Positions 23,629 to 63,032 of a stretch of 64,000 nucleotides of DNA are shown piece after piece (the stretch's first letter is position 1; each line of letters starts with the position of its first letter). Position numbers and translations under genes: made by a program. The stretch comes from a virus. The DNA is taken from IMG/VR virus record IMGVR_UViG_3300031977_002862, positions 1 through 64,000 of that record; one strand, 5' to 3'. The notes under the pieces were generated by a model. That model saw only the letters and a program-made list of their open reading frames with translations. It was not told the DNA's origin and searched no databases.

Positions 23629-23880
23629 TTAATCCGTCCAGATAGCCGCTGCAATCGTTTGTACTAAAGGATCATGCCGTGATACGTCCGTCGGTGTTTC
23701 CGTAACGCTTCCTCCGTTCTCCGTATAAGTGGTAGTCTGGTATAGCTGAACAACGCGCTGAGATTCATGAGGTAGCTGGTCATCTTCTGGGTCGTCAAAA
23801 ACGTCGTTATAAACCACCATCATTCTCTTGTCGGGGTAGACTTCTACGCGTTGAACAGTTGTTGTTTTAGTTATTGCCAT
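23629..23880 (-). CDS. Hypothetical tail-module protein, 83 aa
   Basis: A short beta-rich protein (VQRVEVYPDKRMMVVYNDVFDD, ESQRVVQLYQTTTYTENGG) ending in AAAIWTD. It overlaps the 3' end of the giant fibre gene by 14 bases, so it is translated by coupling. Function unknown. Position directly after a fibre with a C-terminal chaperone domain suggests an assembly or capping role, which is only inference. Confidence 0.65.
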   Translation of the reverse strand: MAITKTTTVQRVEVYPDKRMMVVYNDVFDDPEDDQLPHESQRVVQLYQTTTYTENGGSVTETPTDVSRHDPLVQTIAAAIWTD

Positions 23881-29800: not shown

Positions 29801-32800
29801 AGACGGAGAAGCTACAAGACTAAGAGGTATAGGAGCACCGAACAATCCACCCGCAGCAATTTCGTCCGGAGAGCCCGCCGGTCTTGTTTCAAGCCAGCCT
29901 AAAGCTACATAACTATCGGCAGGAGTAAAATCTACCCAAGTAGAGTTGTTATCGTACTGCCACTGGGTTCCATTCAAGCGAGCAAACGCAACGTCCATCG
30001 CTGTACTTACAACAGTGAACGGATTACCTTTAGCCGTATCAAATACTATAAAGCCTTTAGTGTCTGTTTGGCTTGTTGCAAAAGTAATAGGATCTAACGC
30101 ATTAAGTTGAACTGCGTCTACAGTTATTTTGGAACCATTCCAGATAATAAATCCATCTGTGTTTAGCTGAGGGCTTCCTTCATTATCGCACCCAACAAGA
30201 GCGCCTTCTCCGTCATTGGCAGTGCCGTCAGAGCGTTTATTTAGTAAAAGAGCTAATCCTTGGCTTGCGTTATAACTATTTAGCAGGTCTGCGTCTGCGG
30301 GTTGCGAGGTGATGTTCGATCCCCAAGTAGCTCCAGCAGTAGCACCGGCTTCAGCAACAGCATTTGTTATTTGAGTAGCATCAACTTGACCAGAACCACT
30401 TCCCGTATAGTTCAGAGTACCGTCAGAATTTATTTGAATGTCTTCATTAAATACGTTACCTGCTCCAGAACCTGTTAGAGCGACTCCTCCAATAGAAACT
30501 GTTCCTTTAAATCCTGCGCCTTCATCACTTGAATAAAAGAAAGGAGTTTGAATAATTCCATCGGTAAGGTCTATCGAAGAACCTGCCGAAGAAAAAGCAT
30601 CGGGACTTCCTGTACCGCTATAGTTATCAGATTCAATAGAGCCCGTCGTAATATTTCCACCGTCAATAACAGTTTGACCGCTCGTGGACAGATTTGTGAA
30701 GGTTACAAGATTTGTAAAGCTTGCTGCTTTTAATGCGGTGCCACCAAAAGTTAAAGTTTCACCACTATAGGTATCATTTCCAGAATTATATGTTCCGCTT
30801 TCAGATGCGGAAAATCCTATATACCAAAACTCTGCGTCCGGACTTCCACCTGTGTATGTTGGAGCATTATGGCTCCAATTAGAAAGAATTGTTCCGAATT
30901 CTCCTGTACCAAAATTCATCGTATTCGTGTCGGCACTTGTAGGAAGTGTAGTAGGTTGAGTGCTAGTTTTTACAGAGTAGAATAAATAGCCAGTTACAGT
31001 TCGAGTTCCTCGGGCACCCGTTGATCCCGTGTCTCCTTTACGAGAAATACTAAACCAAAACTGAATGGGATTGCCTGATGCAGTACTAAGATTTGAAGTG
31101 CCCCCTTCTTGATTAAAATTAAGCAGAGATACAGGAATCTTAATTTTATTGGTAGTCTCTTCTATTGGAGAACCTGTAACTAAAAAGTTTACCCAACGAT
31201 CTGAGGCTTCATACCAAGCAATTGTTGTTCCTGCTATAACTTGATTGAGCAGAAAGTCTTTATTGTCTGTTCCATTAGTTTCGCTTCTATGAAAGAGTAT
31301 ATAATCAATATCTCCCGGAGTAGTAATATCGCTCCAACTTGTAGTTCCTTTATCTGGAGAAGCTGAATTTAAAAGAAGTGCATATCTTCCCTGACCAGCC
31401 GCCTCGCCGGTAGTATCCAAATCGTCATAGTTTAAAACAGTAGAAGCTGATGGTAGAGAATTTTCGCCATCTATTGCAAGAAGAGAAGGAGTGCTCCACT
31501 CTCCCTGAGCTATTGTATCAGTAGAAGAAGTTGAAGCAGCAGTAGCCTGAGATACCCATAAATATCTTCCGGTACCTGTACTCTGTATATCATCCGTCCA
31601 GCCATTTGCAGTTGTAAAAGAAATAGCGCCGCCCAAAAAAGTATAGGTCGTGTTCCCTTCAGGTTTACCGCTATTTGATCCAGTACTTGGAGCAGTATCG
31701 GTAATAGTTCTTTGATATATAAATACTGAAGCAGTATTTAAACCATCTCCACCATCCTCTGCTAATTTAACCGGAGCTGACCACTCAGGAGAACCTATAT
31801 CGTCGGTGCTTCCGTTACCAGAAGCAGTTGCTGCTACAACATATAAAGGATCGGAGCCTCCGGTAGGTTCTTTTTGCCACCCATCATCTAAAGTAGTGGT
31901 GGTTATTTTTCCCGTACTTAGGTTTACTGTTACAGGCCCGGGATTATCTGAAGGAGCCGCTGCGCTTCTCTTATAAGCGTAGACGAGTGCATTTGAATTT
32001 CCGTCAGTTCTTACAGCATAAACCGAGCTTCCAGTCCAAGTAATAGAAGCCGAAGTACTAGTTCTGGAACCTACAGCAAGGCCAACTCCTACATAAGAAG
32101 TTTCCCCATTTGCCAAAGTAGGGGGTGTAGTACTCCAATTTGTAGGAGCTGTTAGAGTATTAGTAGTAAAATTATAAGAGCCTCCAGTAAGACCAGCATT
32201 TGAAGTTTTTCTAAATACATATACTTCGGCTACAGCGTCTGCTTCGATTTGAAACGGGCTACCCCAGTCATAGTTTGTAGCTCCTACAGCTTTCTCACCC
32301 GTGCTGGCCCAAAGAGTATAAGGAGAACCATCATCTAAAAGTGTATCGACTGCATTGGTTCTCCAGCCTACAGGTGTACCAGGAGTAGAGCTAGGAGTGT
32401 CTGGTTCACCGTCATTTCGCTTAAAGATTATATCTACACTAGCGCCTGTTTCTCCTGGAGATCCGTCTTCGCCCTCTACAGATTGAGCTAAAGATTGGAT
32501 TTTTGTTAAACTAAAAGAAGTTCCATTAGCTCTCTTTCCCTCTATAAGATAAGATACTGTAGCATTTGTAGCTGTCATATCATCATGAGGAGGGATAGTA
32601 GCGTAAGTACCCGAGTCAGTAACAGGGCTTCCTGGATCAATATTTACACCTGTAGAGGTTACTTTCCAAGTGCCATTTGAAGTTCCTACGCCGTCATAGG
32701 TAAGTTCTGTAGTACCTTCATAAACTCGAATAGTTGTTCCGGAGCCTGTATATGTAATCTGACTACCGCCTCCGGTGTTTGTAACCGGAAGAACATGGGA

Positions 32801-35800
32801 ATCATTAGGCAATATAATAGTAAGAGCATCGGTTCCGTTTGCTCCCACAGTACCTTCCTGAATACCATAAATCGAAACAGTATCAAAAGAGTAGACTCCT
32901 CCGTCAGGGGATCCTGCGTCACTTTCCGCTACTTGAAGAGTATATGAATGAACTTCGTTGGGCCCTGGTTCTCTTCTATCTGGAGATCCGGAATCAAAAT
33001 CAGGAATATCATAAGTATTTTGAGAACCCCAAGCCCTTACCTCGACCCCATCTTTTAAAAATCTATATATTGGAGAAGTATAGTTTGTGCCCGTTCCTGT
33101 AAGAGTAATAGTAGTTTCAGGGCTTTCATTACCATCAGCGTCGAATAAAATTACATATTTATTTGCTGTAAGAGTTGCGGTTTTTCCTTCTGCTCCATCA
33201 GCTCCATCAGTAGATAATAGACTTGCAGCAACCCAATCACCACTACCAATAGTTACAGTATCTGTTAAACTTTTTACATATTGCTGAACTATCCAAAGAT
33301 ATGCTCCTCCACTTGAAGGAATGCTGGTAGTCCAAGAATTAGATGGAGCAGGATCAAGTGCGCCTGTACTAAAAGTATAGGTTACTTGATTATCGGGGGA
33401 ACTAGGAGTGCTTCCAGAAGTAGTTCTACGATAAAGATTTATAAAAGCACTGTTAAACCTTCCAATAGTTGTTCCGGAAGCCTCAGTGCTATAATCGCTG
33501 TAGTAATCTCTTTGCTCCGAAGATCGAGTTGTTTGTACAGTTGTGCGAGTAAAGGCCCTTACCCAATAATAAAATGTTGTTCGAGTTTCTGGAAGAAGAA
33601 TATCGATGTAGCTTCTTTCTAGCGTGGAAGATTGATCAGCGATTTTAACGGCTGTATTTACATTATTTGAAGTACTTCTCCAAATCTCATATCCATTTGC
33701 CTTTGCAACATTATCCCAAGTTACTGTAATCTGGTTAGTTTCCTCATTCGAAGTACCGGTTCCTGTTGCTGCAACATTCGTAGGCGCAGAAGGACGGCGA
33801 ATAACCGCATCTACTTCAAGAGGTACATTGAAAGGGCTTGCTTTTGGAGCATCTATAAAATATATAGAGTCATCGTGCTCTGTAGCTACTACACTTACTA
33901 GACAATTTGTTTGATAAGTAAGGGATTGAATTCTGAAATACTTTCCGCTGTCCCAACCAAATCGAGGATATTTTACACGAATTAGTTCACCAGGACTCAA
34001 TGCTAAACCAACAGGTCGAACTGTAAAAGAAATCTGGCGAGAAAATCTTGAACGATTGAGGATCTGCTCAACAGCAAGTCGAGCATTGTAGTAGTTTGTA
34101 ATTCCTTCGAGCTTGAAAGATCCTGAACGAACAACTCCTCGATCTTGCTTCAAATAATCTGAGTTAAAGAAAGATACGTTTCGACTGTTAAAATTATTCT
34201 GAGGGTCGATAATGCTTGCAGATAAAGAATTATACGCTTTCGAAAGTCCGTCGTCTTTAATCGAAAGAGAACCAATAATATCTTCTTGCTCAATGACTCG
34301 AACACTTGAGCCTACAGAAATCCACTCAATATCAAAATCATCTGCAGACGAAAGACCCAAATCTAATCGAAGACCCGTAATATAGCTGTCTTCCCAATCT
34401 GTTCCACCAGCAGTTAGATTTGACATATCCCACGAAGCAATCACCCACTCATTTAAAACTGTGGGGTCAGAAATATCTTTTTGAAAAGAAGCCGATTCAC
34501 CGTGAGAGTCGGTAGTGTAATAAGCAGCACCATCCCAACCAGTCCCTCCAGTTCTACGTATTCTTGCACGAATAATTAAGTTTTCAGAACCTTTGAAAGA
34601 AAGATTTGATTTTCTAAATACAGGATCGGAGCCACTTGAGTCAAGAGTTATATACTCTTCTTCTTGTGTAATTGAAGCCTGGCCATTTACTGTCCAACCC
34701 TCTGAAGAGTTCTGGAAATTCCAGAAAAGTTCTCCGTCAGCATCTCTCTTTGTCTCTACTGAAAGAGTGAACTTGCCGTCCTCAAATGCAAGTATTCCAT
34801 TAAAGTGCTCAAGAATAACGCCAATAACATTAAAGACGGGCTGAGATGTATCAATTGATAAATTTCCCTGATGGCGAGTAACCCAACGCTGGTCGGGAGA
34901 GTCCCACCCAAGATACTTCCAATACTGTATAAAGTCGGAATCGTAGAGAGAATAATCTAAAACATTACCAGAGCCAGAGGCTACAGAAACACTTGTGCTG
35001 TCTCCGCCAACTTGAGTTAAGGTAAATGAAGAAATCTCAACAGCATTTGTACTTATAGTTGTTTGCAAACCACTGGTTGTATTAAATCTATAAAGACTTG
35101 ATCCAGCCTCCCAAATAATATCGTCTTGCAAGCGAGTACGGACTTTATTGAATTGATTTGTAAGTTTCCCAATACAGTCTGTAAAAGTAACTTTGAAACG
35201 ATCTGGAGAACCACTCAATGCATCTTCAATAGTTTTAATAGTTCCTTGCCACTTAAAACCACCAGTAGGCTCATACTTAAACTTATCCCCTACTGCAAGA
35301 GTATGTCCGACACTGTCTACTTGTATTTCGACTGTAATATCTGATCGAGTATCGCAAGTTCGGGCAGCTTGTAAAAAGCTATTAATATTTAACTTATCAT
35401 CAGAAAGACCCGCCCCATAACGCTTACTCTTCATATAATCTAAAAGAATAAGTCCAAAGTTTGTAGTGGGCCGAACGTCTCTTCCTTCTTCGTTTCCGTA
35501 TATTAGTACTTCATCTCCTGCTTCTGGAACTTCTCCATCGGCTAGATCAGTAGTAAGAGTTAGAATGCGAGTGGCTCCGTCGTAGTCTTTAATTACTTTA
35601 AGAGTTTCTATTATATTGCCATTAAAATCGGTTCTTCTGATTAAAACAGCTTTACCATTATAAGCATCATCAACAGAACTCGGGCTTCCAGTTGTAGAAA
35701 GTTTAATCTGATTCTTTATTGTTATATATGTAGTAGTAGAAGCATTTCCTGTTACAGTACTTATATTATTTGTAGGAGTATCATCAAGGACAGTGTTAGT

Positions 35801-38251
35801 TTGATCTACAGTTACAGTAGTTGAAGAGGTTACCGGGTTTTCTTGATATGTTGGACTCTTAGGGTTTGAACCATCAAAACCATTAGCAAGAGGAATTGTT
35901 CTTTCTGTATTTACCGAGGCTCTAGAACTTCCAGTAGAGCTTTGAGCATCTCTTACGTTGCTTGTACTTGTTGTAGCATTTATGTCAGCAGTACCACTAG
36001 AATTTATTGCAGAAATTTCATCTTGAAGTTTTGTTTCAATAGTAAAGGCTGCATTCCCTTCTGTAAAATCATATGTTGCCATGGTCCAAGTATTTGAACC
36101 ATCATCCATGTAGAATTTTTTAGCCTGCTGTAGAGAGATTTCTTGAGCCGCTGTTAAATCCCAACGAAATCTATAATTTGTATTTCCCTTCCCGTCCTGG
36201 TAAAACCACTTATCTATAATTTGAACATTTGAAGCAAGTGCAGTGTCATCAGAAGACTTTTTGATAGTTACTGTGTCGCCGAGAGAAAAATTAGTGTGGT
36301 TTTCACCACTTCCTACATGACCATAACTTCCGTCGTAGTTATAAGATTCTACAAGCTTTCCTTTTACTACGTAGTCTATATCTGGTACTGTAGTCTGGTC
36401 AGGTGTAATGGTGTGCTTAGAAACAGTATAAGCAGTATCAAGAAGTTTATGGTTTGCCCCCCAGTAATTAGTAGCTGGAGCAGATCCAAAATAATCATTC
36501 TGAAGTTTAAATTTTGTCCCGTTTGCAACACTAGATAAACGAGAAGATGCTTGTTGATCTTCTAAACCTGATTTAAACTCTATAACGGTGTCAGTAGGAC
36601 TTGTAAAATTAATTCCGTAATCATGTACAAGACCTTTTTGTCCTACAGGAACTCCGGAACTATATATTCCATTTACCAATCCATTGTAAACTTCATTTCT
36701 TTGTACGTAAACTCCAGAAGGAGCATTGAACACCCAAGAAACAAGCTCTTGTGCCGCTTGAGCATTTACTTCGGCCTCTGCTTCTATAGCTTCATAGTCC
36801 TCTACAGAAAGAGTTTGACTGCCGCTGTAAACCACTACGGAAGGGTCTACGGTATACTCTCCGAGAATTACGTCGCCTTTATCTGCTCTTCCATAACAAG
36901 CAATATCAACAGCATCGGAAGAGAAATTTGCTCCGGCAGAGTTTCTTACGTCAAAGTCTTGCTCAGAAATACAAACTAAGGGTTGGTCATCCACGTAAAC
37001 ATTCAGAATACTCTGAATCGGACCTTCAGCAAGACTTTCTGCAATATAAACTGTATCGGCGTCCGAGGTATTCTCTAAATCTGCAAAGATTGGATTTCCG
37101 CCTACACGACGAACTCCGTAAATAACAGGAATATAAGTAGCATTTAAATTAAACCTTAAATCAACTTCATTCTCTACCTCTACTTCATATTTCTTTAGCT
37201 TTTTAGTTCCGAGAAGTTTATTTCTCCATACTTCTTTATACCGTTCTTCTGTTGTAGTGTATATTGCAATTACGTTTACCGCATTATTTGCATGTTGAAA
37301 ACCCATATCGCTCGCATATTCAGGTCGAATAGTAGCATCTGGATTGGGGTTGCCATTTCTGTTTAGCGCTCTGTGGAAATCATCTGAACCTAATCGCCCT
37401 CGAACTTGTTGAAAGTCTCCCCAGTGGCTTCTACATACCCAAGAAAACTGTGCAATACCGTTTGGGTCCTCTTTATAATTTGCTGTAGCAATAATACCAC
37501 TGAAAAGAAGAACGGGAGATCCAATAAAAACATCGGGCTCGTCTTCATAGAAAAAAGCCTTATAGACAGATACCTGACGATTAACAAAGTTTGCAGCTTT
37601 TTGAGGAAGAGTAAGTGCAGTTAATTCAGTACTCGCTTGAAGAATATCATAACTTTCTCCTGTTTCTGTCCAGGTAGAGAAAGGAAAAGTCTCTTCTTCA
37701 ACTTTTACAGTTTTGCCCTCGTTTCGAAAAGAATGAATACGAAATCTCTGAAGGCTAAAGTCGGCTGTTGGAGAGCTTGCTGTAGTTGCTTTTAAACGAA
37801 TTAAGTCTCCTTCTACAAAACCAGCATCACTGAAGCTCTCATCCGCTGTAATTAAGTAATCCCCTCCAGAAGTTGAAAAAGTAAGAGATTGGTTGTAGAG
37901 AGCGGCATCAAGAGAATTTGCAGCTATATTAATAGTAAAGTTTGCTATCTTGTTTTCTGCAGAATCCTGAACAGAGGAGACACTAATTAGTTTATTGGCA
38001 TGATACGTCTGAGAACCGTTATTCAGTACAGAACCTGACTCTTCGTAAGTTGATTCATCGTTAAAATTAATCGCATAAGAAGCATCCGTTACATAAGCGT
38101 AACGAGTAAATTTTTGGCTGTATAAAACCTCTAGATTTGGTGCATTCCATTCTTTTAGTGGGCGCTCAAATTTTACAAGATGTGCATAAGTAAAAGGACG
38201 ATTCTCGTCAAGATGAAGTGCGAGAGTAGGATTTAAATCTAATTTTGCCAT
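23867..38251 (-). CDS. Giant tail tip/central fibre protein (J-like) with C-terminal S74 chaperone, 4794 aa
   Basis: A single open frame of 14.4 kb. The first ~1470 residues look like a lambda J-type tail tip protein (FSGIIATANY, VIYGVRRVGG, SLTYQTNCLVSVVATEHDDS). A fibronectin III domain follows at about 1480-1590 (PTNVAATG...QITVTWDNVAKANGYEIWR). Then come several copies of a ~150-residue module with DG-rich linkers, a carbohydrate-binding-like jelly roll (DNFEQYADSADFLTYW), and two copies each of a GGSSTNANTAYTYSQVGHLP block and a DFYEPED...RITDD block. The last ~110 residues are a peptidase S74 intramolecular chaperone (SDARLKTNIKPIESAL, GVIAQEVQ), which normally self-cleaves after trimerisation. 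It thus appears to fuse tip, fibre shaft and receptor-binding parts. Confidence 0.9.
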   Translation of the reverse strand: MAKLDLNPTLALHLDENRPFTYAHLVKFERPLKEWNAPNLEVLYSQKFTRYAYVTDASYAINFNDESTYEESGSVLNNGSQTYHANKLISVSSVQDSAENKIANFTINIAANSLDAALYNQSLTFSTSGGDYLITADESFSDAGFVEGDLIRLKATTASSPTADFSLQRFRIHSFRNEGKTVKVEEETFPFSTWTETGESYDILQASTELTALTLPQKAANFVNRQVSVYKAFFYEDEPDVFIGSPVLLFSGIIATANYKEDPNGIAQFSWVCRSHWGDFQQVRGRLGSDDFHRALNRNGNPNPDATIRPEYASDMGFQHANNAVNVIAIYTTTEERYKEVWRNKLLGTKKLKKYEVEVENEVDLRFNLNATYIPVIYGVRRVGGNPIFADLENTSDADTVYIAESLAEGPIQSILNVYVDDQPLVCISEQDFDVRNSAGANFSSDAVDIACYGRADKGDVILGEYTVDPSVVVYSGSQTLSVEDYEAIEAEAEVNAQAAQELVSWVFNAPSGVYVQRNEVYNGLVNGIYSSGVPVGQKGLVHDYGINFTSPTDTVIEFKSGLEDQQASSRLSSVANGTKFKLQNDYFGSAPATNYWGANHKLLDTAYTVSKHTITPDQTTVPDIDYVVKGKLVESYNYDGSYGHVGSGENHTNFSLGDTVTIKKSSDDTALASNVQIIDKWFYQDGKGNTNYRFRWDLTAAQEISLQQAKKFYMDDGSNTWTMATYDFTEGNAAFTIETKLQDEISAINSSGTADINATTSTSNVRDAQSSTGSSRASVNTERTIPLANGFDGSNPKSPTYQENPVTSSTTVTVDQTNTVLDDTPTNNISTVTGNASTTTYITIKNQIKLSTTGSPSSVDDAYNGKAVLIRRTDFNGNIIETLKVIKDYDGATRILTLTTDLADGEVPEAGDEVLIYGNEEGRDVRPTTNFGLILLDYMKSKRYGAGLSDDKLNINSFLQAARTCDTRSDITVEIQVDSVGHTLAVGDKFKYEPTGGFKWQGTIKTIEDALSGSPDRFKVTFTDCIGKLTNQFNKVRTRLQDDIIWEAGSSLYRFNTTSGLQTTISTNAVEISSFTLTQVGGDSTSVSVASGSGNVLDYSLYDSDFIQYWKYLGWDSPDQRWVTRHQGNLSIDTSQPVFNVIGVILEHFNGILAFEDGKFTLSVETKRDADGELFWNFQNSSEGWTVNGQASITQEEEYITLDSSGSDPVFRKSNLSFKGSENLIIRARIRRTGGTGWDGAAYYTTDSHGESASFQKDISDPTVLNEWVIASWDMSNLTAGGTDWEDSYITGLRLDLGLSSADDFDIEWISVGSSVRVIEQEDIIGSLSIKDDGLSKAYNSLSASIIDPQNNFNSRNVSFFNSDYLKQDRGVVRSGSFKLEGITNYYNARLAVEQILNRSRFSRQISFTVRPVGLALSPGELIRVKYPRFGWDSGKYFRIQSLTYQTNCLVSVVATEHDDSIYFIDAPKASPFNVPLEVDAVIRRPSAPTNVAATGTGTSNEETNQITVTWDNVAKANGYEIWRSTSNNVNTAVKIADQSSTLERSYIDILLPETRTTFYYWVRAFTRTTVQTTRSSEQRDYYSDYSTEASGTTIGRFNSAFINLYRRTTSGSTPSSPDNQVTYTFSTGALDPAPSNSWTTSIPSSGGAYLWIVQQYVKSLTDTVTIGSGDWVAASLLSTDGADGAEGKTATLTANKYVILFDADGNESPETTITLTGTGTNYTSPIYRFLKDGVEVRAWGSQNTYDIPDFDSGSPDRREPGPNEVHSYTLQVAESDAGSPDGGVYSFDTVSIYGIQEGTVGANGTDALTIILPNDSHVLPVTNTGGGSQITYTGSGTTIRVYEGTTELTYDGVGTSNGTWKVTSTGVNIDPGSPVTDSGTYATIPPHDDMTATNATVSYLIEGKRANGTSFSLTKIQSLAQSVEGEDGSPGETGASVDIIFKRNDGEPDTPSSTPGTPVGWRTNAVDTLLDDGSPYTLWASTGEKAVGATNYDWGSPFQIEADAVAEVYVFRKTSNAGLTGGSYNFTTNTLTAPTNWSTTPPTLANGETSYVGVGLAVGSRTSTSASITWTGSSVYAVRTDGNSNALVYAYKRSAAAPSDNPGPVTVNLSTGKITTTTLDDGWQKEPTGGSDPLYVVAATASGNGSTDDIGSPEWSAPVKLAEDGGDGLNTASVFIYQRTITDTAPSTGSNSGKPEGNTTYTFLGGAISFTTANGWTDDIQSTGTGRYLWVSQATAASTSSTDTIAQGEWSTPSLLAIDGENSLPSASTVLNYDDLDTTGEAAGQGRYALLLNSASPDKGTTSWSDITTPGDIDYILFHRSETNGTDNKDFLLNQVIAGTTIAWYEASDRWVNFLVTGSPIEETTNKIKIPVSLLNFNQEGGTSNLSTASGNPIQFWFSISRKGDTGSTGARGTRTVTGYLFYSVKTSTQPTTLPTSADTNTMNFGTGEFGTILSNWSHNAPTYTGGSPDAEFWYIGFSASESGTYNSGNDTYSGETLTFGGTALKAASFTNLVTFTNLSTSGQTVIDGGNITTGSIESDNYSGTGSPDAFSSAGSSIDLTDGIIQTPFFYSSDEGAGFKGTVSIGGVALTGSGAGNVFNEDIQINSDGTLNYTGSGSGQVDATQITNAVAEAGATAGATWGSNITSQPADADLLNSYNASQGLALLLNKRSDGTANDGEGALVGCDNEGSPQLNTDGFIIWNGSKITVDAVQLNALDPITFATSQTDTKGFIVFDTAKGNPFTVVSTAMDVAFARLNGTQWQYDNNSTWVDFTPADSYVALGWLETRPAGSPDEIAAGGLFGAPIPLSLVASPSATVGATAGVDLKDEGGETIQSTAIVVDRLRDNFEQYADSADFLTYWTSHTAAGEITFSSTSYSGGTSLSIGNNSGNDERWLISKQLIPFDPSRIYRVRVVARQTAGSGAAYFGFGGFAADKTTLVNIDGTNTHSSQHYFAAVGVDIPDAWTLYEGYFSGHGASAGGYNSRTFLDPAVAHPNVRYIAPLILVQYNGAAGTTLVDNIVIEEVQAASAIPGYWRVRRSANSPDDLDAPSNSEVFAVAGRNPIDGDIVLVYDGSSPPKVAEWSYDGSAWSFGNTLRINSSLIVDGSITGRAVASDTTITAGTGATSASLSGVGDYRFYTGSTPTSGTFSVKSDGLVNARNLVLRSSEGTVYFDSNDGGFSFPALTEIAQVSQTKVETYAENHNTAGQYATISTAVDNSNVTVRVRVKAFAGFSAIGYSYNGDSAASTLAKIPTSLTITFDVDDDTSFNGSTIVSIAAGGNGTVSGDSYTRTFTRITSGTPTSTQYKVVQTEDTEIIDLGYEGGEQLFVTLTTYTANVEFGGSSCIDASGYITLDTATDTVTLAAADDTYYFRTALSYAGTGVATENQWSGTTAREIAITDATTDGGFVPGGSGGSQTVGAADITGVAITTNNGITGGATVTSGDASFTLGLGAITPTSVTTPSLILEGTATPEITFNGTSDSSVDFAIKATPEALDFYEPEDTNKLHMRITDDSGVNAVFGLRTGSGDGTERIDASGNIILEKTGTATVSETSYSSQTLEFRASGWDTNNAVAKDVNWKIRNIPTASVYPDHDLTFIESDQGSEWTTFVLHGRGSNSWTDPLAASFYGNVNINVHPGSPDRGAGAGNLTVANTVTWDGGSSTNANTAYTYSQVGHLPLAGGTLTGPLAVDANNTTAANFNSGTTNVVAIFESEDSDAWLDLRDSNSGTYGALLGHDSTNLFKIADSGVTVRFSVSNTGTVNASAFVGTLYSSTIYMGTSSPDNNDSITYNDTALFNTGGYYYFQADSYAAGIIAGQLFIGNDSTSGTGQASQNGLIRLGEGGSEGSPNAAAGLEFVSANVNNGYGWRIFNPDNGSGDVPLIIQRRVNAAAWSTHATFEPGGSTGFGVVTWTGGSSTNANTAYTYSQVGHLPLTGGTLTGSLTVGSTTDSATIVFPDKNVADSPTVSGDKRKLISMGNSGNGGLWQTTGRGGLMLASADDTLILASGDIGRNYDPDAGGWNPDADSEEIYLLTDGGVRFRTGLQNTSTYKEFVFDGSGNTTIPGSFVVNGTTRIASSGEFYPASLQSTDKISVLDGSSAQGIRVESLYAGTSYASDGSAAGYVDVLNGYRVGGSTVIDSSRNINLISTGATSPIINFSNNDAGIDFAIRSNSDALDFYEPEDSDKLQMRITDDIGVNAVFGLRTGSGNGTLRIDASGNATLGTISATSLDLTTNALSLNSANVRLKTQKTINLTAFSTSNFYPVVLTNPGNVTSTHHFVISQNSQSGNDPYNNNMIVGWARGQGWSDMTLAYDFHYNAYQDNERTILGMYRGTASSNVIIFYLRGGETYYFHTESDATVYTSGYNSGTSSTSLTVAMVKDANGNDITGQSDASQQLNRVADILGGGQGYYRSHSYLNHPLTMKGNSSVDSGSFTLNGGSGVGALIMNYQASSTNYRGLVDWRTLHLGNNGENNILAGNTSANGFLRFWVNATSDSISGGTSGTNSLTLNANGTSTFTDKVIITNSTYGSHIDLIRDSDTINLSPSAGQLLVSGGFSPSVSNSIDLGRTDKYWQDLWLGTSLKMGGTTVIDSSRNITGVTGYFYKAGTSNTQTTVLTLGSNSTRPVLQFSESTATGLTSGMSIEYNGFATGVSNYIAVNNVAGSVVFRVYSGGDIQTTGNITAYASDARLKTNIKPIESALEKVQLLRGVEFDWRDDVEEKGFNPSVRHETGVIAQEVQEVIPDAVVPAPFDDNYLTVQHQKIIPVLIEAIKEQQEQIEELKAIIKEKLNGNN

Positions 38252-58196: not shown

Positions 58197-58415
58197 TTAG
58201 GCTTCTGCGTCTTGCGACTTTTTTGAGACAGTGTACCCTGCCTTTTCCCACTCTGCAATCGTGCGACACTTTTTCACTTTGCGTGAGCCAGTAACGGTTG
58301 CGACTTCTACACGAGCACAGAAAACTTCTCCGTCTTCGGATTTGGCGACATAATCTTTCTCATCTGCTAGAAGAGCGAAGGGCGAGAGAAGTACAGCGGC
58401 GAGTAAATATTTCAT
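58197..58415 (-). CDS. Small periplasmic protein with TGSR/CRT-AEW motif, 72 aa
   Basis: A clear signal peptide (MKYLLAAVLLSPFALLADEKD) precedes a 50-residue domain with two Cys: VFCARVEVATVTGSRKVKKCRTIAEWEKAGY. I recall proteins with this V.TGSR....C.T..EW pattern from gammaproteobacterial genomes, so a host-derived gene is likely. A disulfide between the two Cys is expected. Located next to another secreted protein at the left edge of the divergent region. Function unknown. Confidence 0.65.
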   Translation of the reverse strand: MKYLLAAVLLSPFALLADEKDYVAKSEDGEVFCARVEVATVTGSRKVKKCRTIAEWEKAGYTVSKKSQDAEA

Positions 58416-58708
58416 TTGATTGTTCCTTGTCTGGGCTTTGAAATCTTTGTTGATTTCGGTGCATATTATACAGGTCGTGTGTTGCTTTTTGATAAAGATT
58501 TTGTTAAGATTCGGTTAAGATTAGCACCATTTGCGGTTCAAAAATACCCCAAGTTGCGCATGAAGGTGGGCGCGAGCGCGCGCTTATAACTTTTGTCTAT
58601 AAACCGCCCCCTCTATATAACAAATTAATCTAAAAAAATATTTGCAAAGGGCTTGTGCTCTCGGTCGCGATATGCGAGAATCATCCTATCAATTAAGGAT
58701 GAAACGAA
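58416..58708. other. Divergent regulatory region with 11-bp tandem repeats
   Basis: This 293-bp region separates leftward and rightward genes. A minus-strand -10 box TATAAT is at 58470-58465 without a good -35. Three head-to-tail 11-bp units (58491-58501, 58502-58512, 58513-58523) share a GTTAAGATT core. A GC-rich palindromic stretch (GGGCGCGAGCGCGCGC, from 58568) and a plus-strand promoter candidate at 58593-58621 follow. Confidence 0.6.
58593..58621 (+). promoter_or_regulatory. Plus-strand promoter candidate before the GC-rich cluster
   Basis: TTGTCT (58593-58598), 17-bp spacer, TATAAC (58616-58621). Weaker than the A-tract promoters, but the only reasonable candidate upstream of the gene at 58709. 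Confidence 0.4.
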
Positions 58709-58906
58709 ATGACTAGCTACACAATCAGCCACTTTCAAAAGGTTAACGCTAACGCCAGCAAAGCAAGCCGCTTTGTCATTGAAGCTCACAACATCCGCAA
58801 CGCAATGCGGAAGCTTTGGGACGCTCACGGCGTCAACCTAATCAACGGCGACACCATCACATGGCAAGATGGCGGCCGCTTCCACCGTTTAATGATTAAC
58901 CAATAA
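58709..58906 (+). CDS. Hypothetical protein, 65 aa
   Basis: A small basic protein (MTSYTISHFQKVNANASKASRF, IRNAMRKLWDAHGVNLINGDTITWQDGGRFHRLMINQ) after an AAGGATGAAACGAA leader. The centre looks like an alpha-beta mini-domain. Codons are richer in GC than in the left arm (CGC, GCC, GGC frequent), as for all genes to 61487. No function recognised. First gene of the plus-strand cluster. Confidence 0.6.
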   Translation: MTSYTISHFQKVNANASKASRFVIEAHNIRNAMRKLWDAHGVNLINGDTITWQDGGRFHRLMINQ

Positions 58907-58918
58907 GGGGGTCAGGTC

Positions 58919-59083
58919 ATGGCTTTTCTTCTGAAATTTTTGCTAGAGGCTTGGGCGATCATCGCGCTAATAATTGGCATGATTACTGCTTTCCTCGGCG
59001 CTCCGCTTTGGGCCGCCTTCCCAATCGTTTGCGCGATCGCTTGCGCTTATTCAGCAAGCCTCATTGATGAAATTCTGGAATAG
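58919..59083 (+). CDS. Small two-helix membrane protein, 54 aa
   Basis: ATG at 58919 follows AAGGGGGTCAGGTC. The sequence is almost wholly hydrophobic: LLEAWAIIALIIGMITAFLG, then APLWAAFPIVCAIACAYSASL, giving two membrane helices with a short acidic tail (IDEILE). No family recognised. Such proteins in early regions often act on host membranes. Confidence 0.6.
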   Translation: MAFLLKFLLEAWAIIALIIGMITAFLGAPLWAAFPIVCAIACAYSASLIDEILE

Positions 59084-59122
59084 GATATATTCCGGATTTT
59101 CTCTGGACTTTTTCAAAAACCG

Positions 59123-59139
59123 CAGGCATACTATGCCTG
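59123..59139. promoter_or_regulatory. 17-bp inverted repeat before the helix-turn-helix gene
   Basis: CAGGCATA-C-TATGCCTG is a perfect palindrome around a single central base. It overlaps a possible -10 (CATACT, 59128-59133, with TGGACT 17 bp upstream) and lies 24 bases before the ATG of a helix-turn-helix gene. That is the expected position of an autoregulatory operator. A hairpin is the alternative. Confidence 0.45.
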
Positions 59140-59162
59140 TTCAATCAACTAAAGGAGACGCT

Positions 59163-59465
59163 ATGTCTAACTACTCAACTTCAATGGTAACTGCTCTTCA
59201 ATCTCAATCTTGGGATTATGAGAGCGCCTCGGCCTTCGCTGCCGAGCACAATCTGTCGGTTCGTTCTGTCATCTCCAAGATTAAAAATCTTGACCTTGAC
59301 TATACGCCAAAGCCTAAGACGGTTTCCACCGCTGGCCCTCGCGTTGTCAAAGCTGACATTGTGGACGCCATCACCAAGGCGCTAGACGCTGACCCCGACT
59401 CGCTCGCGGGTCTGGCTAAAGCTGACGCTCGCGCACTCAACGCGCTATTGATGGCGATTAGCTAA
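59163..59465 (+). CDS. Helix-turn-helix protein, paralogue 1, 100 aa
   Basis: Start at ATG 59163 behind AAAGGAGACGCT. ASAFAAEHNLSVRSVISKIKNL is a helix-turn-helix-like segment, followed by DLDYTPKP and a C-terminal helical region (KADIVDAITKALDADPDSLAGLAKADARALNALL). It shares about half its residues with the protein at 61854, including SVRSVISK(I/L)KNLD(L/I)DYTPKP and (L)AGL.KADAR. I recall such proteins as frequent, uncharacterised regulator-like genes in marine phages. A promoter-binding role is inferred. Its stop overlaps the next start. Confidence 0.75.
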   Translation: MSNYSTSMVTALQSQSWDYESASAFAAEHNLSVRSVISKIKNLDLDYTPKPKTVSTAGPRVVKADIVDAITKALDADPDSLAGLAKADARALNALLMAIS

Positions 59466-59665
59466 TGCTTATCAATGCCTCCGCTTGGGTTGGGACCGCT
59501 CTCATGGGGGCGGCTCCCTTCCTCATCGACTCGGCCACTGGTAAGATCATGGCAATTTTAGGGCTCGCGCTTTTATGCTTGCAAGCCTACGATAAAAAAT
59601 GCTACAATCTGATCATATTAAACTTGATAGGAATTTTCGGTTATGCTTCACACTTTTATCTTTGA
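59465..59665 (+). CDS. Small membrane protein, 66 aa
   Basis: Coupled to the preceding gene by TAATG. Three hydrophobic segments (SAWVGTALMGAAPFLI, IMAILGLALLCLQAY, LIILNLIGIFGYASHFYL), so two or three membrane helices, with a short Lys-rich loop (YDKKCYN). Its last codons overlap the start of the HAD gene by 23 bases. The pattern resembles small inner-membrane proteins of other phages; no function known. Confidence 0.65.
   Translation: MLINASAWVGTALMGAAPFLIDSATGKIMAILGLALLCLQAYDKKCYNLIILNLIGIFGYASHFYL
59579..59608 (+). promoter_or_regulatory. Promoter candidate before the HAD gene
   Basis: TTGCAA (59579-59584), 18-bp spacer, TACAAT (59603-59608), inside the end of the preceding gene and 34 bases before the HAD start. 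Moderate match. Confidence 0.45.
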
Positions 59666-60107
59666 TCTCGACGGCACGACCGTCAACTCTGATCACCGAC
59701 TCGGCGAGACTCTCGCAGACTGGCGCAGGATGAATACTCCCGCCAACATTATGCGAGATACTCCGCTCCCGTTGGCCGAGCAAATGCGCCAGGCCATCCG
59801 CGATGGTTTGGACGTTGTGATCTTGACCTCGCGTGTTATGGGTCACGCTGACCGCGTTTGGCTACATGCTCACGGCATGGTTGCCCCTGTCATTATGTCG
59901 CGGCATATCAGCGACAATCGTCCGGCTGGTGAATACAAGCTTGCTAAACTTCACGAGCTTGCCGTTGATCGTCGCGTCTCATTCCGCGATCTGGCCGCCT
60001 CGGTCGTCATGTGGGATGATGACTCGGATGTCCAACAAACTCTCGCAAATGCTGGCGTTCGCGTCATCGATCCTGTAAACTTCAATCAATTAGCAGAGGC
60101 TATCTAA
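59643..60107 (+). CDS. HAD-superfamily phosphatase, polynucleotide 3'-phosphatase-like
   Basis: A 154-residue HAD hydrolase: motif I FDLDGTT (7-13), motif II LTSR (61-64), Lys99 (motif III) and motif IV WDDDSD (124-129). The short cap and size resemble the phosphatase half of T4 polynucleotide kinase, which removes 3'-phosphates. In that reading it would heal broken nucleic acid ends, and the next gene is an exonuclease. A nucleotidase is the alternative. Overlaps the exonuclease start by one base. Confidence 0.75.
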   Translation: MLHTFIFDLDGTTVNSDHRLGETLADWRRMNTPANIMRDTPLPLAEQMRQAIRDGLDVVILTSRVMGHADRVWLHAHGMVAPVIMSRHISDNRPAGEYKLAKLHELAVDRRVSFRDLAASVVMWDDDSDVQQTLANAGVRVIDPVNFNQLAEAI

Positions 60108-60775
60108 TGAAACAGATTATCCTAACCCTTGACACTGAAACCGCAGACCTAACCGGTGATGTCTATGATGTTGGCTTTGTGGTTCATACGCGAGACGGTG
60201 AGATTCTCGAAACTTACAATGCGCTCGTTGAAGAGATCTTCACGGATGCTAAGAAAATGATGGGCGCATTCTATGCTTCAAAACTTTTCACCCACTACAG
60301 CAAAATGCTTTCCGAGCAATCTATCGGCTTTGCATCTTGGGGTGATATCGTTGCCAACATTCAACGCGCTATCGCGGAGCATGGCGTTACCACTATCGCC
60401 GCCTACAATCTCGGCTTTGACCGTCGTGTCATGCGAAACACTCACCGAGCGCTCGGCTTTTCTGGCTCCATTTGTCCGGCTGGCTTGCAACAGCTCGACA
60501 TCTGGCAATTTGCCTGCGAAACCAAATTGAGCCAAGCCACCTACAAAAAACTCGCTCGTGAGGCTGGCTGGGTTTCTGCCGCTGGCAATATCAAGACGGG
60601 CGCAGAATACGCATATCGATTTTGCTCTGGCGATTTTGGATTTATCGAAGATCATACCGCCTTGAGCGATGCTTTAATCGAGGTTCAGATTCTCGCGGCT
60701 TGCTTTGCAACCAAGAAAAAAATTCCGTATAATATCGTGAACGGCGCACCTTGGAGGATTGTAAACAATGGCTAA
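60107..60775 (+). CDS. DEDDh 3'-5' exonuclease (DnaQ/RNase T-like)
   Basis: A 222-residue exonuclease: Exo I LTLDTETADL (Asp9, Glu11), Exo II AAYNLGFDRRVM, and Exo III with His and Asp in EDHTALSDALIE. The DEDDh set is complete. It could degrade RNA or ssDNA, or proofread; the polymerase already has its own exonuclease, so RNA or host nucleic acid turnover is more likely. Its end overlaps a 35-residue membrane protein gene. Confidence 0.85.
   Translation: MKQIILTLDTETADLTGDVYDVGFVVHTRDGEILETYNALVEEIFTDAKKMMGAFYASKLFTHYSKMLSEQSIGFASWGDIVANIQRAIAEHGVTTIAAYNLGFDRRVMRNTHRALGFSGSICPAGLQQLDIWQFACETKLSQATYKKLAREAGWVSAAGNIKTGAEYAYRFCSGDFGFIEDHTALSDALIEVQILAACFATKKKIPYNIVNGAPWRIVNNG
60705..60733 (+). 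promoter_or_regulatory. Internal promoter before ppk2
   Basis: TTGCAA (60705-60710), 17-bp spacer, TATAAT (60728-60733), within the 3' end of the exonuclease gene. It could raise expression of the 35-residue membrane protein and ppk2. Confidence 0.55.
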
Positions 60776-60875
60776 AAAATTCGCAGCTCTGGCTTTCAAA
60801 GCCTATCTTGTTTATTCCGTCACCGCTGACTTGCTCGTCATCGCTGGCATAATTTACCTAATCTTTGGAGGCTAG
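60768..60875 (+). CDS. Tiny membrane protein, 35 aa
   Basis: ATG at 60768 follows TTGGAGGATT. The sequence MAKKFAALAFKAYLVYSVTADLLVIAGIIYLIFGG is a single membrane helix with a basic N-terminus. Overlaps the exonuclease gene by eight bases and precedes ppk2 by three. Not recognised. Confidence 0.55.
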   Translation: MAKKFAALAFKAYLVYSVTADLLVIAGIIYLIFGG

Positions 60876-60878
60876 AAA

Positions 60879-61487
60879 ATGCTCAAGGAACAACAAGCAA
60901 GACTCAATCGGATTTTAGACTCTCGGGGGCATGGCGGGATTGCCGTTGTGCTTGAAGGTCGCGACACTGCCGGAAAATCTAGCACGATTCGCGAGGTTAC
61001 GCATTATCTGAATCCGGCAAAATACAGCGTGCATCTCTCGCGCAAGCCTAGCAAATCCACCATGAAACACTGGCTCGGGTATTGGTCAAAACGAATGCCC
61101 GCAACGAATCAAATCGTATTTTACGATCGAAGCTGGTATTCTCGCGCAATGGTTCAACGCATGAACGGCTGGTGCTCAGAAACTCAATATGAGAATTTTC
61201 TGGCAAAGCATAAATCATGGGAAGAAAAGCAGGGCTTGCGTTTTATTAAATTCTGGCTTTCGATTTCAGAAGAGGAACAACGCCGCCGAATTGAACGCCG
61301 CAAAGCTTCGCCTCTCACCTATTGGAAATTTTCCGAGAATGACGAAAATGCGCTCTCGTATTATGACCGCATGACGCTCTTAAAGGAGCGCGTCATTGAT
61401 TCCGATTGGCACGTGATCGACTACAACGACAAGCGCCAGGGCATCCTTGACCTCACCACCCGCCTCTGTGACCTGCTAGAATCCTAG
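60879..61487 (+). CDS. ppk2: Polyphosphate kinase 2 (PPK2 family)
   Basis: A 202-residue PPK2: Walker A EGRDTAGKS (26-34; bacterial consensus EGRDAAGKG), the lid region LSRKPSKSTMKHWLGYWSKR, Walker B-like IVFYDRSWYSRA (79-90; bacterial FDRSWYNRAGVE), and the downstream PLTYWKFSENDENA (145-158). Catalytic Asp29 and Asp83 and Lys33 are kept. PPK2 enzymes transfer phosphate from polyphosphate to NDP or NMP. It is shorter than usual (about 230-300), mostly in the N-terminus. It could rebuild NTPs and, with NrdAB, feed DNA synthesis from host polyphosphate. Substrate class cannot be read from sequence. Confidence 0.88.
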   Translation: MLKEQQARLNRILDSRGHGGIAVVLEGRDTAGKSSTIREVTHYLNPAKYSVHLSRKPSKSTMKHWLGYWSKRMPATNQIVFYDRSWYSRAMVQRMNGWCSETQYENFLAKHKSWEEKQGLRFIKFWLSISEEEQRRRIERRKASPLTYWKFSENDENALSYYDRMTLLKERVIDSDWHVIDYNDKRQGILDLTTRLCDLLES

Positions 61488-61495
61488 CAGGTTTC
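61472..61495 (+). terminator. Hairpin terminator at the end of ppk2
   Basis: CCTGCTAG (61472-61479) / CTAGCAGG (61484-61491) with a four-base loop AATC, followed by TTTC. It overlaps the ppk2 stop codon. The T-run is short, so termination may be partial. Confidence 0.5.
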
Positions 61496-61508
61496 ATGCC
61501 AACTTTTT

Positions 61509-61524
61509 TGTTTCACGTGAAACA
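61509..61524. promoter_or_regulatory. parS site: perfect 16-bp ParB-binding palindrome
   Basis: TGTTTCACGTGAAACA is identical to the consensus centromere site bound by chromosomal ParB proteins. It lies 21 bases after the ppk2 stop codon in an intergenic region. No parA or parB gene is in the window, so any binding protein would have to come from the host or from outside this window. Confidence 0.8.
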
Positions 61525-61694
61525 TGAGAAAAACGCGCTAACCCCTTGATTTTATTGGATTTTTGGCGCGCGGGCGCCAGTGCGAAAGTGAAGTTCTGAA
61601 CCTATGTGGCGCGCGTAAAATTTCGAGAGTGCAGTTTCGAGGCTATAGTCTCTTATAGCAAGAACCGTGCCAAGTTTTCGGCGCGGCCGCGCCT

Positions 61695-61723
61695 ATTATA
61701 GTGCAGTTCCGAACCTATGTCAA
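61695..61723 (-). promoter_or_regulatory. Leftward promoter L1
   Basis: On the minus strand: TTGACA (61723-61718), 17-bp spacer, TATAAT (61700-61695), preceded by AAAAAACTC. It points over parS and antisense to ppk2. It shares the 17-bp string ATGTCAAGAGTTTTTTA with L2. Confidence 0.75.
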
Positions 61724-61741
61724 GAGTTTTTTACACTTGAT

Positions 61742-61760
61742 GTGAAAAAAATTATTTCAC
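61742..61760. promoter_or_regulatory. Inverted repeat upstream of promoter P7
   Basis: GTGAAAAAAATTATTTCAC: six-base arms GTGAAA/TTTCAC around seven A/T bases, between the divergent promoters L1 and P7. A candidate operator for a helix-turn-helix dimer. Confidence 0.45.
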
Positions 61761-61779
61761 CTAGTCTCCTAAAAAATTG

Positions 61780-61808
61780 TTGACACGGCTTGCTCCATCC
61801 CATATAAT
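61780..61808 (+). promoter_or_regulatory. Sigma70 promoter P7
   Basis: TTGACA (61780-61785), 17-bp spacer, TATAAT (61803-61808), preceded by AAAAAATTG. Drives the helix-turn-helix paralogue 2, with a leader of about 40 bases carrying AAAAGGAAAAA. Confidence 0.88.
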
Positions 61809-61853
61809 ATCCGCATTGATTGAGAGAACACACACAAACAAAAGGAAAAATTT

Positions 61854-62165
61854 ATGTCTGCATACACTGATAAAATGGTAAACGAACTCAAAGCTGTTGA
61901 CTCTTGGAACTACGACCTTGCCTCCGACTATGCCGCTCTGCACGGCCTGTCAGTACGCTCTGTCATCTCCAAGCTCAAGAACTTAGACATTGACTACACG
62001 CCCAAGCCTGTTGTCAAAGCAGCAAGCCCACGCATTCGCAAGGCTGACATTGTTGTCCAGATTGCCGAAGCATTAGGCATGGCTGACAATGCCGAAGCCC
62101 TGGCGGGATTGGAGAAAGCTGACGCACGCTCGCTCACTGCAGTGCTCAAGCAATTGCCCTGCTAA
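61854..62165 (+). CDS. Helix-turn-helix protein, paralogue 2, 103 aa
   Basis: Paralogue of the 59163 protein: ASDYAALHGLSVRSVISKLKNLDIDYTPKP, then RIRKADIVVQIAEALGMADNAEALAGLEKADARSLTAVLKQ. The first part is a helix-turn-helix-like segment, the second a helical mini-domain. Single-gene transcript: consensus promoter upstream and clear terminator downstream, as expected for a highly expressed regulator or host-directed early protein. DNA binding is inferred. Confidence 0.78.
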   Translation: MSAYTDKMVNELKAVDSWNYDLASDYAALHGLSVRSVISKLKNLDIDYTPKPVVKAASPRIRKADIVVQIAEALGMADNAEALAGLEKADARSLTAVLKQLPC

Positions 62166-62183
62166 GGCTTGCTGAAACCACAA

Positions 62184-62206
62184 AGCCCCGATAAGGGGCT
62201 TTTTTT
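62184..62206 (+). terminator. Intrinsic terminator after paralogue 2
   Basis: AGCCCC (62184-62189), loop GATAA, GGGGCT (62195-62200), then six T residues. A strong rho-independent terminator. Confidence 0.85.
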
Positions 62207-62232
62207 ATGCCTGTAGAAAGCGCTCGGCGCCA

Positions 62233-62261
62233 ATTTTAGTGCCAAAGTGATGGCATGTCAA
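62233..62261 (-). promoter_or_regulatory. Leftward promoter L2
   Basis: On the minus strand: TTGACA (62261-62256), 17-bp spacer, TAAAAT (62238-62233), preceded by AAAAAACTC. It faces the terminator hairpin and is antisense to paralogue 2. Confidence 0.65.
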
Positions 62262-62474
62262 GAGTTTTTTAAATTTTAGCACTTATTTAAGTTTTAGAAG
62301 GTCTTGTCGGGGCAAGAGCAAGTTTTTTTAACTTTTTAAGACTTTTGCAAGCAAATAAAACTTGACCCGAAGTGGTCGTGAGCGCCCGCCCCCGATAAAA
62401 TTTGCGTCTGCTCTCAGAAGCCCCGGAAAGTAAGAAAACCACCTAAATTTTGTGTAGATCTACCTATTTTTTAG

Positions 62475-62538
62475 GTAAAATTTACGGTTTTTAGTTTTTG
62501 ACGTGGTGCCTAAATTAGTTTTTTAAGTAAAATTTACG
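62475..62538. repeat. Pair of direct repeats GTAAAATTTACG
   Basis: GTAAAATTTACG occurs at 62475-62486 and 62527-62538, each within a longer shared context (TTTTTTARGTAAAATTTACGRTTTTT). Each core is nearly palindromic (GTAAA-A-TTTAC). They lie 52 bp apart, upstream of promoter P8, and look like operator or iteron sites. Confidence 0.65.
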
Positions 62539-62569
62539 ATTTTTTTCATAGGTCCGGTGTAAATATCTT

Positions 62570-62598
62570 TTGACACAGTTGCTCTCAGCTCGTATAAT
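62570..62598 (+). promoter_or_regulatory. Sigma70 promoter P8
   Basis: TTGACA (62570-62575), 17-bp spacer, TATAAT (62593-62598). Drives the rightmost gene cluster with a short leader carrying TTAGGAG. Confidence 0.88.
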
Positions 62599-62621
62599 AT
62601 ACGGAAATTAGGAGCAAAATT

Positions 62622-63032
62622 ATGATGTTAAAAAAGTTAGAGATTGCAAGAATTACGATGGAGTTGGTATCCGACTACTTCGGGCTGCACGGCACTCGTG
62701 TTAAAGTTGTGCCCACCAGAGAAGTAGGAGACCAAGATAACGCGTACCTCAAGCCCATTTCGGACTGGGAGTATGAGATCGAAGTGCATCCTGACTTTAT
62801 GAAAAACTCTACAGAAGAAGAGTTAGTCAAAGTTATTGCTCACGAAATGACTCACGTAAAACAGTATGAATACGACGACCTTGAACTTGGTGTGAAGTGC
62901 CAATACTGGAAAGGTGAGATATATGACGAAGAGGTCGAAGGCTACTGGTTTATGCCTTGGGAGATTGAAGCCCGAGGTTATGAAGCAGCCTTCTGGGCTC
63001 TTTATTCAGACAAATGGGAGCAGTATGTCTAG
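62622..63032 (+). CDS. Zinc metalloprotease-like protein (HExxH), 136 aa
   Basis: A minimal zincin: VIAHEMTHVKQYEYDD gives the two zinc His and catalytic Glu, and PWEIEARGYEAAFWA about 45 residues later offers the third ligand Glu. The N-terminal half (ITMELVSDYFGLHGTRVKVV) is alpha-beta. I recall such small zincins in many marine and T4-like phages; their targets are unknown. First gene behind promoter P8, with ribosome-binding site TTAGGAG, so probably early expressed and directed at host proteins. ATG 62625 is an equal alternative start. Confidence 0.82.
   Translation: MMLKKLEIARITMELVSDYFGLHGTRVKVVPTREVGDQDNAYLKPISDWEYEIEVHPDFMKNSTEEELVKVIAHEMTHVKQYEYDDLELGVKCQYWKGEIYDEEVEGYWFMPWEIEARGYEAAFWALYSDKWEQYV

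Follow-up and report, generated by a model that had tools for sequence, protein, structure and literature searches.

A parS-type palindrome in the dmp region of a T5-like phage, and second-chromosome centromere motifs in T5-like phages of Vibrio

A T5-like virus record of 91,844 bases, the first 64,000 of which form the stretch analysed here (the window), carries an exact 16-bp parS-type palindrome, TGTTTCACGTGAAACA, in the spacer behind its dmp–exonuclease–PPK2 operon. Because this palindrome is kept at one locus among relatives and its flanks are not, because no ParB was found, and because T5-like phages of Vibrio carry the parS2 motif of a second chromosome, we think it rather likely that host ParB, with CTP, would load on a functional parS kept by selection, slide over the phage dmp region, and position or partition the phage DNA.

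The palindrome and its surroundings

Passages of PMC7022226 give the consensus TGTTNCACGTGAAACA as the universal chromosomal parS 16-bp palindrome, and the window palindrome agrees exactly with this sequence or an accepted variant of it, bearing out the exact match that the original prediction had claimed. The further claim that such a match lies beyond chance in 64 kb agrees with a probability of about 1.5e-5 for an exact 16-mer by uniform arithmetic. When up to three mismatches were allowed, two matches were seen in the window against 0.39 expected from shuffling (at least two in 9 of 100 shuffles), the second, with three mismatches, being at 62848. The whole record contains no other match with two or fewer mismatches, and the 27.8 kb outside the window none with three or fewer.

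The palindrome is intergenic, 21 bp 3′ of the PPK2 stop, 329 bp upstream of a small putative DNA-binding gene, and 1.4 kb downstream of the dmp homologue (Table 1). The predicted non-coding location behind a PPK2 gene was confirmed, the putative regulator on the other side having a weak phrog_1725 match, and the divergent promoters predicted in the gap were recovered as one perfect sigma-70-type promoter on each strand (predicted); promoter-like sites in 58400-63000 numbered 12 versus 5.5 in shuffles. The exonuclease-like gene belongs to the same operon as PPK2. By annotation, dmp is a gene of the terminal repeat in T5 and phi 3, and tblastn matches to phi 3 dmp also occurred in the loci of most PPK2 relatives. 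The product of the small putative DNA-binding gene, which gave no NCBIfam match, is a paralogue of the 59064-59465 product (DNA repeat D1, 72%), and these two genes bracket the operon.

Table 1 Features around the parS-type palindrome in the window.
Feature	Position	Strand	Evidence or remark
dmp (deoxynucleoside-5′-monophosphatase) homologue	59643..60107	+	32% identical to phi 3 gene by tblastn, E 1e-15
Exonuclease-like gene (DNA polymerase exonuclease type)	60107..60775	+	phrog_20187 E 7.6e-43; phrog_192 E 2.9e-6
Gene for a PPK2-type polyphosphate kinase, immediately preceding the palindrome	60879..61487	+	PF03976 E 3.3e-42; 42 IMG/VR relatives
Candidate parS-type ParB-binding palindrome, TGTTTCACGTGAAACA	61509..61524	.	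exact match; single copy in record
G+C-rich GGCGC-N-GCGCC palindrome	61565..61578	.	recurs behind parS-type site in relatives
Perfect sigma-70-type promoter (predicted), leftward towards the palindrome	61695..61723	-	12/12 consensus bases, 17-bp spacer
Perfect sigma-70-type promoter (predicted), rightward towards the small DNA-binding gene	61780..61808	+	12/12 consensus bases, 17-bp spacer
Small putative DNA-binding protein	61854..62165	+	phrog_1725 E 3e-5 (weak; phage DNA-binding family)

The GGCGC-N-GCGCC palindrome, a possible operator, occurs in the record at 61565-61578 and 61680-61693 and nowhere else. A G+C-rich palindrome was found 26-78 bp past the parS-type site in 23 of 24 relatives examined; in the 24th the sequence ends 5 bp beyond the site. 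The copy at 61680-61693 is immediately downstream of the -10 box of the perfect leftward promoter; to the left of that promoter, the listed minus-strand reading frames are all short and antisense to the operon.

Conservation among relatives and search for partition proteins

The relatives compared were 42 IMG/VR records obtained by a PPK2 protein scan, some of them near-identical to each other. A parS-like site with three or fewer mismatches was present in 33 of the 42, and in 32 of these its position was -8 to +697 bp relative to the PPK2 stop. The remaining one is L148/G004, whose PPK2 has moved and whose site is 4 kb away, between exonuclease and metallopeptidase homologues; the site therefore belongs to the spacer behind the dmp–exonuclease operon and not to PPK2. 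Across 25 distinct sequences from 33 loci, window included, the site had 1.72 bits per base versus 0.17 in the flanks, and pairwise identity was 91% for the site itself but 28% and 39% for the 25 bp on its upstream and downstream sides, respectively; as loci were selected for having the site, its score and the contrast are somewhat inflated, although only 0.39 matches with three or fewer mismatches are expected in 64 kb. The 25 sequences comprised TGTTCCACGTGGAACA (eight), TGTTTCACGTGAAACA (seven), hybrids of both (four), and forms with one further change (six); variation is mainly among known parS forms. Positions 5 and 12 were T/A in nine, C/G with both sides changed in ten, and hybrid in six. 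These paired changes, with the difference in information content, indicate selection as a palindrome.

The degenerate pattern NGTTNCACGTGNAACN occurred exactly once in 13 of the 15 larger relatives and was absent from two, though one of these two, G003, carries a CATGTG variant. A single copy is not a strict rule, since another relative (L132) has a second, near-parS site. The ends of a 95.8-kb relative (G001) overlap by 184 bp at 99.5%, and it is therefore probably complete; it holds one site and no ParB_N match. The site was missing in nine of the 42 records. Three of these (L125, L129, and L161) have less than 100 bp after PPK2, three (L158, L160, and L162) have the same 3′ flank as L148 but stop short of the place of its site, and two (L150 and L126) break off near the PPK2 gene; L143, with no site over 1,878 bp, is a fair negative. 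The check proposed with the original prediction, whether related phages keep the palindrome at this locus, therefore did not refute it: the palindrome is conserved there and its flanks are not. At the DNA level the locus had no match among named phages, and PPK2 was found in 16 records of named phages, all below 60% identity.

The terminase large subunit (TerL) of the record is 51% identical to those of Demerecviridae (T5-like) phages of Vibrio, and its DNA polymerase is 44% identical to those of T5-like phages of the same family; this T5-type pair places the record in Demerecviridae. It also encodes replication genes, ribonucleotide reductase, ThyX, and lysozyme. No lysogeny genes were found among the part of the proteome searched, and the phage is presumably virulent, given its likeness to T5. 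The A1 and A2 proteins of phi 3 had no tblastn match in the record, which has the dmp homologue and in whose assembly a collapsed terminal repeat would not show.

The ParB_N (PF02195) and HTH_ParB (PF17762) profiles had no match in the 91,844-base record. Because PF02195 failed to match a Vibrio ParB2 and so can miss ParBs, Vibrio ParB2 and ParA2 queries (tblastn and phmmer) and an NCBIfam scan were added. The queries found nothing in the record or in the loci of the 42 relatives, although the positive control was found, and the scan of ten phage proteins gave no ParB match. PF02195 matched in none of the 42 PPK2 relatives, four first-look candidates having failed. The original observation that no parA/parB is in view therefore extends to the whole record, where the searches found neither a ParB nor a relative of ParA2 or ParB2; in this the virus record differs from a chromosome carrying parS together with parAB. 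A phage-plasmid ParABS system was considered and rejected, as the searches of the record and its 42 relatives turned up no ParB of the phage's own.

An IscU/NifU-type iron-sulphur scaffold gene of full-length appearance is located at 73509-73892 of the record (L122:9509-9892). Its product is at most 86% identical to gammaproteobacterial IscU, and the best 80 matches listed extend from 78% and include betaproteobacteria. From the IscU scan 20 bacterial genomes were chosen, and 13 of them had one to three parS sites in the same forms as the phage sites. The seven in which parS was not matched are two Escherichia, two Pasteurellaceae, and three further gammaproteobacterial MAGs. The host is probably a gammaproteobacterium, a weak placement that these sequence matches suggest; it is uncertain because of the three gammaproteobacterial MAGs without parS and the betaproteobacteria among the IscU matches.

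Centromere motifs in T5-like isolates and viral collections

We take TTTACANTGTAAA to be the V. cholerae chromosome-II centromere parS2. In 119 genomes from the taxonomic order to which a Shewanella genome belongs, the motif was present in 11-14 copies in six and in 0-3 copies in the others. In the one of the six that was examined further (G083), all eleven copies were on one contig, one of them between the RctB gene (PF11826, E 8.5e-217) and ParA/ParB genes, and this spot is the chromosome-II origin. In V. cholerae, according to PMC3141006, parS1 has the universal sequence, whereas parS2 occurs in vibrios and photobacteria only.

All 11 Vibrio T5-like phages examined carried TTTACANTGTAAA, and none of the nine non-Vibrio T5-like phages did, T5 included (hosts: Escherichia, Klebsiella, Enterobacter, Pantoea, Erwinia, Providencia, Proteus, and, for two, Aeromonas); a reversed TTTACANTGTAAA control was absent from all 20. 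Since the Vibrio phages share ancestry, the 11 are not independent events; JSF10 and Cilsick were chosen by similarity to the phi 3 A1 region and not by the motif, and D254 is named a Vibrio phage in a record that gives no host. In the eight mapped phages (phi 3, JSF10, Cilsick, pVp-1, PG07, D254, Ceto, and VCPH), parS2 is in spacers adjoining A2, A1, or dmp, or genes annotated in their place; KIT04 is consistent with this placement, and the other two of the 11 are X1 and 70E37.1. The copies are often close inverted pairs in pre-early gene spacers. Such pairs could form RNA hairpins, but the single copies in phi 3, D254, VCPH, and 70E37.1 speak against a pure hairpin role.

The parS sequence proper is rarer in these isolates. 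Matches with three or fewer mismatches occurred in four of 11 T5-like isolates, in three of the four only at three mismatches, and a reversed parS control also matched three of the 11, so that three-mismatch matches in this set are noise. The V. cholerae phage phi 3 was the only one of these 11 to hold parS proper. It has one exact site and one TGTTTCACGTGGAACA, and the right terminal repeat contains a second copy of each. In the left repeat the two sites flank A1 and one hypothetical gene, and two TTTACANTGTAAA copies begin five bases beyond the exact parS, so that the terminal repeats of phi 3 hold both kinds of site. Among all 20 T5-like isolates, parS-type sites were found in two, the V. 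cholerae phages phi 3 and JSF10, and were exact in phi 3 only; nine of the 11 Vibrio phages had none. In JSF10 (L266), the sites at 3122 and 5270 both show CACGTG changed to CATGTG relative to phi 3, and its three parS2 copies are intact.

Neither motif was present in T5 or in the two Aeromonas phages. The match between host and site is one seen for Vibrio; for the window's phage it would depend on a host that is weakly placed. The left repeat of T5 is annotated as first-step-transfer DNA, which enters first, and the window site is in the corresponding dmp operon; first-step transfer would presumably occur in the window's phage as well. The T5 left repeat (L273) has other long palindromes, at 3418, 3698, and 4169, in the spacers around A1/A2 where the Vibrio phages have parS2.

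In IMG/VR, the exact parS 16-mer was found in at least 120 stretches, and three control palindromes of the same composition in 0, 5, and 54. One of these controls, TGCTTTACGTAAAGCA, was far above the other two at 54 stretches, and because of it the size of the excess is uncertain and may be as low as about two-fold; its sign is not uncertain. An own ParB as partner of these viral sites was rejected, since 50 of the at least 120 IMG/VR records yielded one ParB_N match above the cut-off and one weak one. In a collection of 50,697 phage records, 286 contained the exact 16-mer and none contained one control palindrome; the groups include Listeria (87 of the 286 by label), Microbacterium, Arthrobacter, Gordonia, Lactobacillus, Bacillus, and Microviridae. 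With these numbers and the phi29 precedent (described in passages of PMC9437464), the original expectation that a host-type centromere would be unusual in a virulent phage was not supported. Listeria P100, Lactobacillus Lpa804, Gordonia, Arthrobacter, and Microbacterium phages, and small Microviridae are among the carriers. Of 60 of the 286 rows, some have the match within a gene, and some of the Listeria records are short and lack annotation.

Proposed role of host ParB and known systems

According to published work, ParB binds both parS and CTP and slides onto adjoining DNA. On the phage, host ParB with CTP would nucleate at the palindrome and slide from it onto the flanking DNA, which is the dmp-type pre-early operon region. 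The partition complex would couple the phage DNA to host ParA and the nucleoid, and through this coupling the DNA would be positioned, and inherited if infection stalls. That ParB binding of the phage site is real and used appears very probable from the comparisons above. As for the main benefit, positioning or partition is the leading but tentative choice, at a little less than even odds, an effect on transcription is possible but less likely, and titration would have little likelihood. We infer ParB binding, sliding, and host identity, and more weakly the partition benefit. The original suggestion that the phage may recruit host ParB gained from comparison, through the conserved palindrome, the search for ParB, and the Vibrio parS2; its binding part is still a prediction from sequence. 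Against our best explanation, it is not obvious why a phage with a fast lytic cycle would need partition.

A farther-reaching version, which we hold to be rather unlikely, is that T5-like phages whose hosts have a suitable ParB systematically carry, in their first-entering DNA, a centromere read by that ParB, so that ParB-ParA seizes this segment and joins in two-step injection. ParB-ParA would then anchor or pull the first-transferred segment on the nucleoid with the rest of the genome still in the capsid, and T5, in a ParB-less host, would manage that step with A1 and A2 alone.

Host ParB could instead act on silencing or timing, its clamps sliding over early promoters and the pre-early operon and lowering or timing their transcription, with partition a by-product or absent. 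Two perfect promoters within 300 bp of the palindrome and the parS2 copies of Vibrio phages in spacers around A1 and A2 would suit such a role, as would the reports that V. cholerae ParB2 spreading silences promoters near a parS2 site (PMC3688505) and that P. aeruginosa ParB can lower expression from a promoter with parS inserted upstream of it (PMC7022226). However, the effect on the V. cholerae origin promoters was measured at ~10- to 14-fold physiological ParB2 (PMC3688505), and the first 25 bp after the phage site are 39% identical among relatives and variable beyond, so we regard silencing as possible but not likely. Titration, in which the copies made by phage replication would pull ParB away from the host centromere and upset host chromosome segregation or cell-cycle control, seems quite improbable. 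Bacterial genomes with parS matches have one to three sites, which many phage copies would outnumber; yet one site per genome and not an array in 13 of 15 larger relatives argues for loading and not for an array-type decoy, and the corresponding phi 3/T5 region is a terminal repeat, entering first in T5, not late DNA.

An ordinary operator, at which a phage repressor binds and the likeness to parS is coincidental, fits the nearby promoters and the two paralogous small putative DNA-binding proteins encoded close by. It was nevertheless rejected as very improbable because the Vibrio phages carry a different, host-specific motif, that of their hosts' second centromere; in addition, the main variants of the phage site are those used by bacterial genomes, parS and parS2 are 5 bp apart in phi 3, and coincidence would be needed twice. 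Chance, contamination, or recently acquired host DNA is hardly credible. Phage collections may hold host fragments, as the Listeria share of the exact matches and the short unannotated records among those listed suggest, but the palindrome recurs at the same locus in diverged relatives whose upstream flanks are near-random, it is single in nearly all of the larger relatives, and an exact match is itself improbable by chance.

Host ParB use by a virulent phage is an already known kind, represented by phi29 with Spo0J. Records of the phi29 family contain parS-like stretches (88% over ~23-25 bases, E 8), and parS-like sites of phi29 were reportedly described by Meijer in 2005. Vibrio, which includes the known hosts of the relatives, is non-sporulating. 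Passages of PMC9437464 report that the virulent phage phi29 uses host Spo0J (ParB) for spore entrapment. The window's phage would resemble phi29 in host ParB use on a phage genome, here proposed from its sites, and it carries a site of host type although the searches found no ParB of its own; it differs in that phi29 acts through spore entrapment in a spore former, whereas here the phages are T5-like and have the site in their dmp region, which is of the pre-early type. The Vibrio T5-like phages further differ from phi29 in carrying a second-chromosome centromere.

Compared with universal chromosomal parS of ParABS, the phage site is the same 16-bp palindrome with the same main degenerate positions, but it is usually single, on a phage, and without a parB found. 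Similarly, TTTACANTGTAAA in the Vibrio phages is the motif at oriCII, although the phage copies differ in their frequent arrangement as close inverted pairs. Phage-plasmids partition phage DNA with their own ParABS and encode their own Par proteins, whereas no ParB was found in the window's record. The element SGI1 on IncC plasmid parABS is likewise a mobile element using a partition system encoded elsewhere (PMC10954446), but it pairs an integrative element with a plasmid system, and here a phage would be paired with a chromosomal ParB. The parS in lambda that PMC13190303 mentions is an engineered label.

In the open-licence literature, with part of the matches inspected, no paper on parS in T5-like phages was recognised. 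Within that literature, both the conserved parS-type site in T5-like phages, near dmp/A1/A2, and the occurrence in Vibrio phages of the centromere motif from their hosts' second chromosome appear to be new. They suggest that host partition proteins are a phage target beyond spore-forming Bacillus. The T5-like phages form a natural experiment, one family whose hosts have different ParBs or none, with matching centromeres at least in the Vibrio branch, and ParB help in phage entry, gene timing, inheritance of stalled infections, and host takeover is now testable. Centromere sites could also hint at the hosts of uncultured phages.

No known RNA family reached its gathering score in 58-64 kb, and no tRNAs were found in the window. 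A minus-strand open reading frame of 4,794 codons occupies 23867-38251 of the window, inside a minus-strand block with head genes.
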